A stretch of DNA of 64,000 nucleotides from an uncultured Bacteroidota bacterium. GTDB taxonomy: Bacteria > Bacteroidota > Bacteroidia > JABEUT01. Positions 19,205 to 58,086 of this stretch are shown piece by piece. The stretch is taken from the NCBI GenBank assembly GCA_903863935.1, contig CAIPDV010000121.1, forward strand, positions 1-64,000. The letters are read 5' to 3'. The notes under the pieces were generated by a model, which saw nothing but the letters and a program-made list of their open reading frames with translations, made no database searches and was not told the origin of the DNA. The position numbers were made by a program, and so were the translations under genes. The stretch's first letter is position 1. Each line of letters starts with the position of its first letter.

Positions 19205-19212
19205 CAAAGGTA
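19205..19212 (-). promoter_or_regulatory. -7 box (TACCTTTG, minus strand)
   Basis: Reverse complement of caaaggta, upstream of start 19181. Confidence 0.5.
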
Positions 19213-19214
19213 AA

Positions 19215-19297
19215 AGATAATAGATATGAGATATAAGAGATAAGATATACGCTTGTAAGATTTTTTTTGCTCATCTTTTATCTCTCATCTTTCATCA
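19215..19297. repeat. Convergent heptamer-iterated inverted repeat (AGATATN word)
   Basis: Arm 1 agataat agatatg agatata agagata agatata; arm 2 ctcatct tttatct ctcatct ttcatca. Confidence 0.65.
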
Positions 19298-50919: not shown

Positions 50920-51249
50920 ATGAATGACAAGTCAAAAAAACGGTTAAAGCGAATCCTTTGGCTTAATATTATTCCCGCAATTTGGTTTTCTAATTGGGTA
51001 GTTTATACCAGTACACCTGAAAAAACCCATGTAATGCGTTCAAGGCTTATTGGCTATGCCGTTTCTTTACCGCTAGGGTATATTGCATTGCTACTAATGG
51101 CTTTTCTACCTTCATTACTCATAGGTGTATTGATTAACGCCAATAACGGAAAAAGCCATTGGGATACGACTATTGGAGCAACTTATATTATGTGGCTTAT
51201 TGTCGCTGCCGGCACCATAATTTCGGCGATTCAGGTTGTAGGGATATAA
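50920..51249 (+). CDS. Small polytopic membrane hypothetical protein
   Basis: Two to three TM segments; 9 nt after the GT2 gene. Confidence 0.55.
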   Translation: MNDKSKKRLKRILWLNIIPAIWFSNWVVYTSTPEKTHVMRSRLIGYAVSLPLGYIALLLMAFLPSLLIGVLINANNGKSHWDTTIGATYIMWLIVAAGTIISAIQVVGI

Positions 51250-51263
51250 CCCACAGCTTTTTC

Positions 51264-51278
51264 TTACCTTTGCAGCCC
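51264..51278 (+). promoter_or_regulatory. -7 region TTACCTTTGCAGCCC
   Basis: Identical 15-mer to that upstream of rplU. Confidence 0.6.
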
Positions 51279-51314
51279 AAAATTATAGTCATTAATTTTT
51301 AATTATTCATTTAT

Positions 51315-52946
51315 ATGACCAACGCATTTTTTAAGGTTCCAACTGCTAAGAACGAACCCATATTAGGTTATAAGCCCGGAAGCCCAGAAAAAGATATTCT
51401 GAAAAGCACCATCCAAAAAATGATGGGCGAAAAGAAAGATATTCCCATGCATATTGGAGGAAAGAAAATACGCACTAAAAAGACCGTTACTTTATCTCCA
51501 CCGCATAACCACAAACATATTATTGGCCAATACCACAAAGGTGATGCAAGCCATGTTAAAATGGCTATTGATGCCGCCATGAAAGCCAAGCACGATTGGG
51601 CCAACCTCCCATGGGAACAACGTGCTTCTGTATTTCTTCGTGCCGCCGATTTAATGGCTGGTCCATATAGAGCCGCAATGAATGCCGCTACTATGATTGG
51701 ACAAAGCAAAAATGTATTTCAAGCGGAAATTGATTGTGTATGTGAACTGGCGGACTTCTACCGTTACAATGTGCAATTCATGACCGAGATTTACCACCAA
51801 CAACCGGAATCAGCACCGTTGATTTGGAATAGAACAGAACATCGTCCGCTGGAAGGATTTGTATTTGCGCTTACGCCGTTTAATTTTACCTCCATTGCCG
51901 GTAACTTGCCAGCTGCTCCGGCACTCATGGGCAATACAGTAGTTTGGAAACCATCCCACGCACAGATATATTCGGCAAGTCTCATCATGGAAATATATGA
52001 AAAAGCGGGATTGCCACCCGGAGTTATCAATTTGATATTTACTTCAGGACCTGAAGCCGGAGAAGTTATTTTTAATCACCGTGATTTTGGCGGAATCCAC
52101 TTTACAGGCTCTACAGACGTGTTTAACGGAATCTGGAAAACCATCGGAGATAATGTTTCTAAATACAAATCTTATCCAAGATTGGTTGGAGAAACAGGTG
52201 GAAAAGATTTTGTGGTAGCACATCCATCTTCAGATCCGAAAGCGGTTGCGACAGCCCTTTCCAGAGGTGCGTTTGAATACCAGGGACAGAAATGCTCGGC
52301 TGCTTCACGCGCTTATATTCCTCAATCAATGTGGAAAGAAGTGAAACAATTATTGCAGGAAGATATTGAATCTTTTAAAATGGGTGATGTGGATGATTTC
52401 AGTAATTTCATCAATGCAGTTATTGATGAAAAATCATTCGATAAAATTGCGGCTTACATCAATGGAGCGAAGAAAGATAAAAACGCACAAGTTATTATTG
52501 GCGGTAAGTGCGATAAATCAAAAGGATACTTCATTCAACCAACCGTTATACAAGCCCTCAAGCCCGATTACAAAACCATGTGCGAGGAGATTTTTGGGCC
52601 GGTGCTGAGCATCTATGTTTACGATGATAATAAGTTTGAAGAGATATTGGATATTGTAGATAAAACTTCCTCTTATGCTCTTACAGGAGCGGTTTTTGCA
52701 AACGACAGACAAGCCGTGCAATTGGCAACGACTAAACTCACACATGCTGCGGGTAATTTCTATATCAACGATAAACCAACCGGTGCAGTAGTAGGACAAC
52801 AACCATTCGGCGGAGCCCGTAAATCGGGTACGAATGATAAAGCAGGTTCAATGTTTAACTTAATCAGATGGACCTCACAAAGAACCATCAAGGAAAACTT
52901 TGTACCACCGACTGATTATAGGTATCCGTTTATGGAGGAGAAGTAA
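51315..52946 (+). CDS. pruA: L-glutamate gamma-semialdehyde (1-pyrroline-5-carboxylate) dehydrogenase
   Basis: EPILGYKPGSPEK; FNFTSIAGNLPAAPALMGNTVVWKPS; LVGETGGKDFVVAH; FEYQGQKCSAASR. Confidence 0.95.
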   Translation: MTNAFFKVPTAKNEPILGYKPGSPEKDILKSTIQKMMGEKKDIPMHIGGKKIRTKKTVTLSPPHNHKHIIGQYHKGDASHVKMAIDAAMKAKHDWANLPWEQRASVFLRAADLMAGPYRAAMNAATMIGQSKNVFQAEIDCVCELADFYRYNVQFMTEIYHQQPESAPLIWNRTEHRPLEGFVFALTPFNFTSIAGNLPAAPALMGNTVVWKPSHAQIYSASLIMEIYEKAGLPPGVINLIFTSGPEAGEVIFNHRDFGGIHFTGSTDVFNGIWKTIGDNVSKYKSYPRLVGETGGKDFVVAHPSSDPKAVATALSRGAFEYQGQKCSAASRAYIPQSMWKEVKQLLQEDIESFKMGDVDDFSNFINAVIDEKSFDKIAAYINGAKKDKNAQVIIGGKCDKSKGYFIQPTVIQALKPDYKTMCEEIFGPVLSIYVYDDNKFEEILDIVDKTSSYALTGAVFANDRQAVQLATTKLTHAAGNFYINDKPTGAVVGQQPFGGARKSGTNDKAGSMFNLIRWTSQRTIKENFVPPTDYRYPFMEEK

Positions 52947-52950
52947 GAAC

Positions 52951-52981
52951 GAGCTAAGAGCTAAGAACTAAGAGCTAAGAG
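52951..52981. repeat. Heptamer array GAGCTAA x4, left arm
   Basis: gagctaa gagctaa gaactaa gagctaa gag. Confidence 0.85.
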
Positions 52982-52982
52982 T

Positions 52983-53333
52983 ATGGAATATCCTTTAAGG
53001 GAAAAGAGCTACAAATTTGCTTTGAGGATTATTAAACTCTATAAGTTTCTAGTTGCTGAGAATAAAGAATTTGTCTTAAGTAGACAGGTATTAAGAAGTG
53101 GAACTGCAATCGGTGCCTTAATAAGTGAGGCCAAGTTTGGCCAAAGCACAGCAGACTTTATTTCGAAAATGAATATTGCCCTAAAAGAGGCTAATGAAAC
53201 AGATTATTGGCTCTCACTTTTAAGGGATTCCGATTATATAGATGAGAAACAATATAAGAGTCTTCACAAAGACATTAACGAATTAATTTCAATGCTTGTT
53301 TCAACTGTAAAAACCTTAAAAAGCAAGAAATAA
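52983..53333 (+). CDS. Four-helix-bundle protein (23S rRNA IVP-like family)
   Basis: FALRIIKLYKFLV, SRQVLRSGTAIGALISEAKFGQSTADFISKMNIALKEANETDYWLSLL. Confidence 0.9.
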   Translation: MEYPLREKSYKFALRIIKLYKFLVAENKEFVLSRQVLRSGTAIGALISEAKFGQSTADFISKMNIALKEANETDYWLSLLRDSDYIDEKQYKSLHKDINELISMLVSTVKTLKSKK

Positions 53334-53345
53334 CTTGTCTTTTCA

Positions 53346-53380
53346 CTCTTAGCTCTTAATTCTTACCTCTTAGCTTAGAG
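53346..53380. repeat. Heptamer array CTCTTAG, right arm
   Basis: ctcttag ctcttaa ttcttac ctcttag cttagag; inverted relative to 52951-52981; contains the stop of the 53375 CDS. Confidence 0.8.
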
Positions 53381-53899
53381 GTGCATGTCGTCTAGAATGA
53401 TATGAAGAAGCATCGAGTGAAAATTCTCTACCACTCCGAAACTCTTAACGGGGATAATAATATTGGCATCGCCTAATTTGCCGAGAGAATTTTCTTTATT
53501 GAAACCGCTCAGGGTAATAATCTTCCCTCCTATTTCTTTAGCCTTGCGGGTAGCATTCAAAATGTTTTTTGACTCGCCGGAACTGCTGATAGCGACTAAT
53601 AAATCACCAGGCAAAAACTGCGCAATAATCCATTCTTCCATAGCGCGTTCCCAACCGTAATCGTTGGCATAGCAGGTTATCATAGCAGCATCGGTAAACG
53701 ACATGGTATGCCTCCGAGCCATCTTCATATAATCTTCCATCATGTGCGAACAGATGGAGTTGGAACCTCCGTTGCCAATAAAGAAAATACGTTGGTGAGC
53801 ATTTAAAAGCTCTGCTGCTTTAGCAGAAGCACTTTTTACTTCCTCCGATGCGAAATACGTTGCAAAATCAGTTTGATATTGTGACCAGTGTTTAGACAT
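53375..53899 (-). CDS. SIS domain sugar-phosphate isomerase (GmhA-like)
   Basis: RIFFIGNGGSNSICSHMMEDYMK; FLPGDLLVAISSSGESKNILNA. Confidence 0.88.
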   Translation of the reverse strand: MSKHWSQYQTDFATYFASEEVKSASAKAAELLNAHQRIFFIGNGGSNSICSHMMEDYMKMARRHTMSFTDAAMITCYANDYGWERAMEEWIIAQFLPGDLLVAISSSGESKNILNATRKAKEIGGKIITLSGFNKENSLGKLGDANIIIPVKSFGVVENFHSMLLHIILDDMHL

Positions 53900-53909
53900 A
53901 TTCTAGGTT

Positions 53910-54218
53910 TTAAATTGGGTGCAAATATACGTATATATCCTTTTTAGCAATATAATCTTGGTTTAACTTTTCTTTTTGCTTTTCAAAATCGTCTTTTAGA
54001 TTAGCAATACTTTGCTTTATCTCTTTTAATTCGATATTCTTTCTTAATAATGTACTGTCAACATCAATAATGTCTTTATATTGGCTTTTGAAACTTTCTA
54101 AATCCTTTTCATTCTGAGAAACTTCTCCTTTTAGATCCCATATTCTTTGAGTTCTTGTATAAATAATAACACATAACACAGCTACCAAAGCTCCTAAAAT
54201 GATAATTGTTTCTGTCAT
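53910..54218 (-). CDS. Small TM-plus-coiled-coil hypothetical protein
   Basis: TM TIIILGALVAVLCVIIYT followed by a Lys/Glu-rich helix. Confidence 0.55.
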   Translation of the reverse strand: MTETIIILGALVAVLCVIIYTRTQRIWDLKGEVSQNEKDLESFKSQYKDIIDVDSTLLRKNIELKEIKQSIANLKDDFEKQKEKLNQDYIAKKDIYVYLHPI

Positions 54219-54311
54219 TGCTTCTAAAATTTAATATTTGCTTTCTCAATACAAAAAGTAGTAAGAACAAATATAATTGTTTCTCCCAACTATTCGTATT
54301 TTCGCCTCTCG

Positions 54312-56927
54312 ATGATTAAAGAACCCACACCGGTTTGGGATACTCCCCTTATGAAGCAGTACCAGGGCATTAAAGCCAAGTACCCTGATGCTATTTTGCT
54401 GTTCCGTATAGGCGATTTTTACGAGACTTTCGGCGAGGATGCCAAACAGGTTGCCAATATTCTGGGTATCGTGCTCACCAAAAAATCTATTGGCAATAAT
54501 GCCACCACCGAACTGGCGGGCTTTCCTTACCACTCTATGGATAGTTACTTGCCTAAACTGGTCCGTGCGGGGCATCGGGTTGCTATCTGCGACCAGTTGG
54601 AGGATCCCAAGGTTGCCAAGAAATTAGTCAAGCGCGGAATTACCGAACTGGTAACTCCCGGCGTTTCCTATAACGATAAAATATTACAACATAACGCCAA
54701 CAACTTTTTAGCCGGAGTGTATTGGCAAGGCAAATTGGCGGGAGTAGCTTTTCTGGATGTTTCTACAGGTGAGTTTTTAGTCGCGCAAGGTGATAGGGAT
54801 TATATTGAAAAACTGTTGCAAAGCTTTCAACCCACAGAGGTCTTATATCCCAAAGACCGTAAAAAAGAATACGAAGAAATTTGGGGTGATAAGTATTATA
54901 GCTATGCCCTTGACGGATGGATATTCACGGAAGATTATGCAACTGAACTTTTACTGAAACGCTTCGATACCCTCTCGCTGAAAGGCTTTGGTATAGAGGG
55001 AATGAAAGAAGCGGTAATTGCCGCAGGAGCGGTATTAAAATATTTGGCAGATACCCAGCATGACAAGGTTGCCCACATCAATAAAATAGCCCGGATTGAG
55101 CGCGACCATTTTGTTTGGCTGGATGAATTTACCATACGAAATTTAGAGTTAGTGCAAACCATTCACGAAAAGGGCAAATCACTTTTGGAAGTGATGGACA
55201 AGACCTGCTCGCCTATGGGGGCAAGGCTTTTGAGGAGGTGGATAACTTTTCCGTTGAAAGATAAAGTACTGGTGGATGAACGCTTGGGCATGGTAGATTT
55301 TTTCCTGAACCACGAGGAGTTTATGGAGAAAGTCACTCAGCAATTAAAATCTATCGGCGATTTGGAGCGCATCATTTCAAGGGTGGCTGTGGGTAAAATA
55401 GCACCTCGGGAAGTAGTGCAATTAAAAAATGCTTTGCATGCTATTGAGATTTTACAAAAAGAATCTGCGGCAACAAACGAAGCACATTTTAAAAAAATAT
55501 CAGAGCAGTTTAATCCTTGCAAAACCATATCGGAAAGGATAGCAAAAGAAATTGTGGCGGAGCCTCCTGCGCTTGTCAATAAGGGAAATGTGATAAGCAG
55601 CGGAGTAAATGCAGAATTGGATGAGTTGCGCAAAATTGCTTTTTCAGGCAAAGATTATTTAGTTCAGATTCAACAACGGGAAATTGAGCGCACAGGCATA
55701 CCATCTTTGAAAGTTGGATTTAACAATGTGTTTGGGTATTTTTTAGAAGTAACCAATACACATAAAGATAAAGTCCCGCAGGAATGGATACGCAAGCAAA
55801 CCCTTTCTAATTGCGAACGATACGTTACTGAAGAGCTTAAACAATACGAAGAAAAAATATTAGGAGCCGAAGAAAAGATATTGGTGCTGGAAGAAACGCT
55901 TTTTAATAATTTGGTGCTTTCATTGGCAGATTACGTAGCACCTATCCAACTGAATGCCGCTCTCTGCGCCCGTTTGGATTGCCTTTTATCTTTTGCAAAA
56001 ATTGCGAAGGAATATAATTATGTCCGTCCGCATATTAACGAAGGTAAAAAAATTGATATTAAAAACGGAAGGCATCCTGTAATTGAACAACAGTTGCCTA
56101 TTGGGGAAGCATATGTTGCGAATGATATTTTTCTGGATGACGAAACGCAACAAATTATTGTTGTCACCGGACCGAACATGTCAGGTAAATCAGCCTTACT
56201 TAGACAAGTTGCCTTGATTGTTATAATGGCCCAGATGGGAAGTTTCGTTCCTGCTCAAAATGCGGAGATTGGAATAGTGGATAAAGTATTTACAAGGGTT
56301 GGCGCATCCGATAACATTTCTTCGGGCGAATCAACCTTTATGGTTGAGATGAATGAAACCGCCAGCATCCTAAATAATATTTCGGAACGCAGTTTAATAC
56401 TACTGGATGAAATAGGCCGCGGTACAAGTACATACGATGGTATCTCAATTGCATGGGCCATTGCTGAATATATTCATGAACACCCCGAAGCAAAAGCTAA
56501 AACATTATTTGCTACCCACTATCACGAGTTGAACGAAATGGAAAGTCAGTATAAGCGGATAAAGAATTTTAATGTATCAGTAAAAGAAGTAAAGAATAAA
56601 GTCATTTTTCTGCGCAAACTAACGCCCGGTGGCAGCGAACACAGCTTTGGTATTCATGTTGCAAGAATGGCGGGAATGCCTGTAAAAGTGGTACAACGAG
56701 CAAATGAAGTATTAGGCCAATTGGAAAACTCGCACAGTCCTGCATTAAATGCAAAAGCAATTAAACCTGCCGAAAAAGAAGATAACCTGCAATTAAGTTT
56801 CTTTCAATTGAATGACCCCGTGTTGGAACAAATTAAAGAGGATATTCAAAACATCGACATTGATAACCTAAGCCCTATTGAGGCTTTAGTGAAATTAAAT
56901 CAGATAAAGAAACATTTGGGGAGTTAA
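54312..56927 (+). CDS. mutS: DNA mismatch repair protein MutS
   Basis: [99 protein letters not shown]. Confidence 0.98.
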
Positions 56928-56929
56928 CG

Positions 56930-57019
56930 ATGAACTATGAAGTATGAACTATGAACGAAATAATAACTATTGGTCATCGTTCATAGTTCATAGTTCATAG
57001 TTCATAGTTCATACTTCAT
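56930..57019. repeat. Heptamer-iterated inverted repeat (ATGAACT / AGTTCAT)
   Basis: Arm 1 four units 56930-56957; arm 2 six units 56978-57019. Confidence 0.9.
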
Positions 57020-57021
57020 AG

Positions 57022-58086
57022 TTATTTCATTGCTTTTCTGTCAGCAGCTTTTTTGCAGTCGTCGGCGTAAGATTGGGCATCATCACAGCCTAAGTCGGCT
57101 GCCTTTTGGAAGTAATCGCAGGCATCCTCACCCATTTTCTTTTTACGTAACCCCAGTTTGAACCAAGCAATACCTTCGCTCGGTTTCAGGTGAATGAGTT
57201 GTTGGTAGTCATACAATGCTGATTCAACCATCCCAAGGTTTTCACAATCTGCCGCCTGATGCAGATAAGCATCGGCAAATTTGGGATTTCTGACGATCAC
57301 TTTTGTAAGGTCGTTCATCGCCTCCTTGTATTTTTGTTTTTGCTCATAGGTAAGGGCTCTGCGGTAATATCCCATATAATTCAGGGAATCCATTTTAATA
57401 GACAGGGTATAGTCATCTATTGCCGAGTCAAGCTTTCCAAGTCCTTCGTATGCAATGCCCCTATAGGTATAATAGTTAGCCGAATCATGACAATATAAAA
57501 TAGCCTGATTCAGATTTTGTAAACCTTCCGCAAATTGCTTTAGATCTACTTCAGTTTTACCTTTTGCAAAATATTCAATGCCACACATCCAGCAGAAATT
57601 ATCGCGGTAAGCCAATTTGGCGGCTTTCATGGTATCACTCAGCCGTCGTGCTTTACTGATATATCTGCAAGCTTCATTTTTACCTTTCCCTTTCATCATT
57701 ATTCCCTTTTGGAGCAATGCTTCCGGGTATTGTGAATCAATTTGCACCGCTACATCAAAATCTTTTCCTGCCTGAACAAATTCGCTGTTATTCATATTGG
57801 CCATTCCAAGCTTATAATAACCAACCGCCCATTCGTGGTTAACCGAGAAGTTCGGATATAAACTTGATTTTTCGAAGGCAGTACATGTATCATAGCTGTA
57901 TATCTTGCTCAAATACTCCGGCAACTTGGCCTCGAAAGTTTTTATGTAACGTGTATAATACTCTGCTGCCAGTTTAAAGCTGCCATTATTATAGGCCCGT
58001 TCACCGGCAAGGAAATTAACATCGTCCTGCGCCTTTAACGAGATTACTGAATTTAATAAAAATAACAGGAGGAATATTTTTTTCAT
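57022..58086 (-). CDS. TPR repeat protein, secreted
   Basis: Signal peptide MKKIFLLLFLLNSVISLKAQ; repeated TPR units. Confidence 0.88.
   Translation of the reverse strand: MKKIFLLLFLLNSVISLKAQDDVNFLAGERAYNNGSFKLAAEYYTRYIKTFEAKLPEYLSKIYSYDTCTAFEKSSLYPNFSVNHEWAVGYYKLGMANMNNSEFVQAGKDFDVAVQIDSQYPEALLQKGIMMKGKGKNEACRYISKARRLSDTMKAAKLAYRDNFCWMCGIEYFAKGKTEVDLKQFAEGLQNLNQAILYCHDSANYYTYRGIAYEGLGKLDSAIDDYTLSIKMDSLNYMGYYRRALTYEQKQKYKEAMNDLTKVIVRNPKFADAYLHQAADCENLGMVESALYDYQQLIHLKPSEGIAWFKLGLRKKKMGEDACDYFQKAADLGCDDAQSYADDCKKAADRKAMK

Follow-up and report, generated by a model that had tools for sequence, protein, structure and literature searches.

Among described systems, the 23S rRNA intervening sequence (IVS) of Coxiella burnetii comes closest to the locus reported here. 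It measures 428-444 nt, is bounded by 28-bp terminal repeats and holds the S23p open reading frame, reported as decaying; tandem GACAGAT heptamers stand right before the S23p ATG, and the IVS is cut by RNase III (PMC4990558). The protein family concerned, IVP, has been described as functionally uncharacterised (PMC11270868). An earlier proposal, by Ralph and McClelland in 1993 as cited in PMC4990558, held that IVSs are mobile elements whose reading frame serves mobility. Outside rRNA, two further papers describe heptamer repeats in Xanthomonas (GGGAATC) and Nostoc (PMC4692102), and in Beggiatoaceae (TAACTGA; PMC4679880).

The unit we describe occupies 52951..53376 of the window—the whole 64,000-nt stretch analysed, from an uncultured Bacteroidota bacterium—and lies between a pruA and a SIS gene, not within a 23S rRNA gene. 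The likeness to the Coxiella IVS extends to size (~425 versus 428-444 nt), to inverted repeats (31 nt versus 28 bp), to a PF05635/S23p reading frame in the loop and to tandem heptamers directly ahead of the ATG. The link to 23S IVSs drawn in the original prediction is borne out by this common anatomy.

The unit between pruA and the SIS gene

Upstream, the insertion site is marked by a pruA-like aldehyde dehydrogenase gene (51315..52946, + strand). Four nucleotides past its stop begins the left arm (52951..52982, +), an array of 4.4 GAGCTAA copies at 52951-52981 (TRF score 55, 91% matches), which abuts the ATG of a 116-residue IVP / S23 / four-helix-bundle gene (52983..53333, +). The right arm (53345..53376, −) carries 4.3 copies of CTCTTAG at 53346-53375, the reverse complement of the GAGCTAA array; the two pair over 31 nt, 52952-52982 with 53345-53375, at 94% complementarity. 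Convergent to the unit is a SIS-domain gene (53375..53899, −), at whose stop codon the right arm ends and whose ortholog stands directly after pruA in a sister genome (G010) that is element-free here. The gene's position between an array after the pruA stop and an inverted array had been anticipated correctly; the right array had also been said to contain the SIS stop codon (53375-53377), which it overlaps by only 1-2 nt.

Assignment of the reading frame to the four-helix-bundle family likewise agrees with the original prediction, at 99.3 bits against a curated cut-off of 33.8 for the PF05635 (23S_rRNA_IVP) profile. Its nearest solved relative is 2rld (E 5.9e-38), and 2gsc is another relative by sequence; five chains are deposited in each, and by likeness to them the protein is probably a pentamer. 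Within the window, the GAGCTAA/CTCTTAG heptamer pair is confined to the unit: GAGCTAAGAGCTAA, with two mismatches or fewer allowed, matches six times, always at the unit (shuffles: mean 0.27, maximum 3), which chance does not predict. As single-stranded RNA, the unit has a predicted fold that pairs both arms (z = -5.4). An Rfam search of 51000-58000 returned no match, and hence no known RNA family.

A gene-less relative stands downstream at 56926..57023 (no strand assigned), where AACTATG x4 and TCATAGT x7 enclose a loop of ~20 nt and overlap the mutS stop; its heptamer is that of two IVP loci of the source genome, L005 and L006. A decayed heptamer palindrome without a gene, made of AAAGATA-type and CTCATCT arrays, is also found in the window at 19206-19296.

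Flanking arms across the IVP family

The source genome (G000) has eight IVP loci. Those inspected carry inverted arrays, mostly of period 7, at or near start and stop, and the heptamer differs at most of them (AATTAGG, GAGCTAA, AACTATG, AGTTATR, TAACTGA-like and AATTAGT types). Of 119 genomes across the phylum, 91 contain IVP genes, with a maximum of 16 in one. Flank complementarity was scored by comparing the upstream side of each gene with its reverse-complemented downstream side, flanks from different loci serving as the null. Median flank complementarity for 121 full-length phylum IVP genes was 17, versus 8 in this mismatched-flank null; 79% exceeded the 95% point of the null and 58% its 99% point, a level reached by none of 89 control ORFs from the same loci. 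The expectation that inverted heptamer arrays would be enriched around the family is thereby upheld. Retrieval with the IVP alignment added 80 further loci, mostly from other phyla though some again Bacteroidota, spanning proteobacteria, clostridia, acidobacteria, planctomycetes, chloroflexi, cyanobacteria, archaeal Methanophagales and others; here 81% lay above the 95% point and 34% above the 99% point of a null inflated by shared motifs.

The period of seven is a pronounced feature of the arms. It is the best period in 111 of 135 arms, and mean self-identity is 0.66 for lags of 7, 14 and 21 but does not exceed 0.32 for any other lag. Left arms are skewed on the coding strand, with G exceeding C in 117 and falling below it in eight. 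Units of 8 or 9 nt replace the heptamer at L055, L056, L071 and L081, as well as at L029 and several gene-less copies of G010, and at L032 and L034 a short period-6 GAGTGT-type palindrome lies upstream of the IVP gene instead of flanking arms. IVP genes with complementary arms also occur on Anabaena pANA02 (L344), a Picosynechococcus plasmid (L346) and Nostoc pNe_5 (L343), their settings being listed, respectively, as cas6-cas4, cas10-cmr3 and between ribonucleotide reductase genes. A crude motif scan of the retrieved loci gave no convincing case of an IVP gene within 23S rRNA, and a single-protein query of viral contigs found no relative, so that a viral origin is not supported.

Arm sequence follows the protein. 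With locus pairs that have homologous neighbours left out, like arms at unrelated sites rise from 0.3% of pairs with distant IVPs to 60% of pairs with close ones, an association restricted to the same strand, with nothing comparable on the opposite one. The Mantel rho for arm against protein similarity is 0.158, the top value in 1000 permutations being 0.123. For example, L002 and L024 occupy unrelated sites and have related arms, AATTAGGAATTAAAAATTAGG and AATTACGAATTAAAAATTACG; L005 and L006, at separate places in G000, have matching arms and are 89% identical; and the orthologs L007 and L048 retain 27 identical arm nucleotides despite 70% difference at synonymous sites. Because arms at unrelated sites go with the IVP protein, and because the pruA/SIS site of G010 has no heptamer palindrome, the arms belong to the element and not to the site. 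Purifying selection on the proteins themselves is strong (dN/dS of 0.03-0.11 in the computable cases). Some copies are nonetheless broken: at L008/L009 (G000:C81:71431-71743) the gene is split over two frames and apparently decayed, its sister-species ortholog L036 being intact, and in-frame stops are present in other IVP copies of the phylum.

Gene-less copies and sites without the element

In 464 kb of G000 we found 12 inverted array pairs, and none in shuffled sequence, which rules out chance as the origin of paired arrays. Three pairs have long loops (353-366 nt), each enclosing an IVP gene, and nine have short loops (10-54 nt) with no gene. In G010, too, every long-loop pair encloses an IVP gene but one, which joins the arms of adjacent elements. 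Gene-bearing and gene-less forms can share their arms exactly, as illustrated by the 27-nt arms common to the L007 IVP element and gene-less copies. The AGTTATR arm of L007 has 87 matches in G000, against 0 for a reversed-pattern control; among these matches 22 paired palindromes were counted, one of which encloses the IVP gene. Two genomes with an L007-type IVP have 102 and 58 AGTTATR matches and G009 has none; G008 has 28, with no close L007-type IVP found in a genome only 57% complete. Another dispersed palindrome, TGCTGAACTTGTTTCAGCATC with its complement, occurs at L012, L018 and L191, and is once nested in the loop of a gene-less AGTTATR element.

Two genomes bear on whether protein and palindromes go together. 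G009, a sister that is 99% complete, has no IVP match and is the one IVP-free genome in the census; its 285 kb contain no paired arrays by a strict detector that misses decayed arms, whereas the rates found in G000 and G010 (2.6 and 4.9 per 100 kb) predict about 7 to 14. G075 has eight IVP genes in 400 kb and yet neither strict paired arrays nor gene-less copies; IVP alone is therefore not sufficient, and the gene-less form is lineage-dependent.

In G010, the closest relative (pruA 95% identical), the pruA/SIS site has neither IVP gene nor heptamer palindrome and carries instead a different REP-like sequence, so the arms probably arrived with the gene. Joining the two flanks of each of 28 elements made another 15 sites readable in G010. 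Two are without an element, two have IVP in both genomes and two hold the same gene-less family; of the remainder, several have a palindrome of another family, one has another REP-like sequence and one a remnant. The element is missing from G010 at the L006 site and at one gene-less site, and at the position of the window's 56926-57023 palindrome a different, REP-like one stands in the sister genome. Two IVP sites of another genus also have gene-free counterparts in relatives. Element-free sites carry 13-62 nt of unrelated sequence, in which no target-site duplication could be read, and boundaries are not base-exact; since these sites are compared between species, loss is not separable from gain.

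Strict detection finds a palindrome at eight sites in G010: four are inherited in common, and the other four belong to a different family. Among the 11 sites without common descent, 4 have an other-family palindrome, where density predicts ~0.2 (our own arithmetic), so some sites are re-used. Re-use may reflect site preference or in-place replacement, and the data fit either. The original prediction cast palindromes as landing sites and looked to a relative with an empty pruA/SIS palindrome; the G010 site speaks against a pre-existing palindrome, and the part of the idea that stands is the re-use of some sites. Its broader suggestion of a mobile unit fares well, given the sites that lack the element in relatives, the arms that follow the protein, the L005/L006 copies and an IVP-free G009 without paired arrays. 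The term non-autonomous fits the gene-less copies best, and may or may not suit the IVP-bearing form. Neither outcome named beforehand as counting against mobility was found: the gene is not stably present in all relatives without repeats, and flank enrichment is not lacking.

A putative mobile element, its rivals and its relatives

We think it likely that the stretch 52951-53376 forms a small mobile element with a palindromic build, of the IVS type but situated outside rRNA, its IVP gene lying inside the element's own heptamer arms, and we extend that judgement to the whole explanation, including recognition and movement. In this model, the IVP protein would recognise its own family's heptamer arrays in DNA, as hairpin or duplex, and would help to move both the gene-bearing element and, in trans, the short gene-less palindromes with the same arms. 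No recombinase is encoded in the unit, where IVP (PF05635) is the sole gene in the loop; cutting and joining during the presumed transposition would fall to a separate enzyme, for which the Y1 (HUH) transposases of the genome are one candidate. On this view, 23S rRNA IVSs would have arisen as insertions of this element, persisting there because their hairpin is cut out by RNase III.

Could the arms instead be conserved for RNA pairing, forming an mRNA hairpin whose cleavage by RNase III releases or silences the IVP message? The strong predicted fold of the unit's transcript, the frequent placement of elements in likely operons (genes read as nuoE/nuoF, or biotin carboxyl carrier/carboxylase) and the RNase III excision demonstrated for the Coxiella IVS would all suit such a role. 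Selection for pairing on the sense strand should, however, leave more G-U than A-C mismatches, and none of this excess is seen: 168 arm pairs contain 204 G-U and 230 A-C (p 0.23). We read this as evidence of a DNA-level role, pointing to arms kept by selection on DNA rather than RNA. The pruA/SIS unit, moreover, sits between convergent genes, and gene-less copies enclose no message. With RNA-stem conservation rejected as the main driver by the G-U test, we regard this explanation as distinctly unlikely. Alternatively, the heptamer palindromes might serve Y1 (RAYT/HUH) transposases as REP-like substrates, the IVP gene being no more than a passenger caught in the loop. Of 11 genomes of the genus, 10 have Y1 transposases (seven in G000, seven in G010 and two in IVP-free G009), and a palindrome-bordered gene with dispersed short copies is the REPtron layout (PMC8266576). 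A mere passenger, however, should not have arm types that track its phylogeny, nor strong purifying selection, nor be always the long-loop gene in the two censused genomes; and G009 has Y1 genes, one of its two matches with an internal stop, and 0 heptamer palindromes in 285 kb. Because Y1 matches occur in G009 as well, Y1 is a possible enzymatic partner but not sufficient, and the passenger idea seems to us improbable.

A retroelement route, in which an Avd-like IVP works with a reverse transcriptase and the arrays are products of reverse transcription, is least credible of all, and we give it very little weight. PF05635 is reported to resemble Avd of diversity-generating retroelements (PMC10053308), and tandem 7-mers look like templated synthesis; against this, RVT_1 has 0 matches in G000 (98% complete) and G010 (96% complete), and a match in only 2 of 11 genomes of the genus. 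The missing reverse transcriptase match in G000 disfavours a retro-mechanism.

Returning to the IVP-type mobile element, a more ambitious generalisation is tentative, our doubts slightly outweighing our confidence: that IVP genes form a mobile-element class of bacteria and archaea, built around a small four-helix-bundle protein, apparently not an enzyme, that recognises inverted heptamer arrays particular to each locus, and that this class gave rise both to the IVSs of 23S rRNA and to the intergenic heptamer repeats that have long gone unexplained in many genomes. Because the arrangement recurs around the IVP family in many phyla, with gene-free repeat copies elsewhere, it suggests that a type of small mobile DNA is widespread and has been overlooked. 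Outside rRNA, genes of the family appear commonly to sit between heptamer arms that match, and to have gene-less relatives. A search confined to the open-access literature found no prior report of this link. The proposal of IVS mobility, so far with little support, thereby gains a concrete and testable form, namely binding of the protein's own heptamers and the moving of short palindromes.

Against known systems, the unit is set apart from the 23S IVSs by its position, yet in construction it is an element of their kind. Unlike the Coxiella IVS, it lies between protein genes, has many copies per genome with differing heptamers as well as short gene-less ones, and encodes an IVP under strong purifying selection. 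It resembles the REPtron and RAYT-REPIN systems (PMC3116915, PMC8266576) in its palindrome-bordered gene and the many matching palindromes without a gene across the genome, but its protein is no Y1 HUH transposase, its arms are tandem heptamers, several families coexist per genome and Y1 genes lie elsewhere. The repeats of Xanthomonas, Nostoc and Beggiatoaceae are likewise intergenic 7-nt tandem arrays, with 70-75 inverted pairs per genome in Xanthomonas, and the passages searched in PMC4692102 and PMC4679880 draw no link to IVP genes. X. campestris, for its part, has an IVP protein, XCC0516, whose structure is solved (2gsc). As a lead, these repeats may be related to IVP elements, which could explain heptamer arrays so far reported without a mechanism in all three groups.
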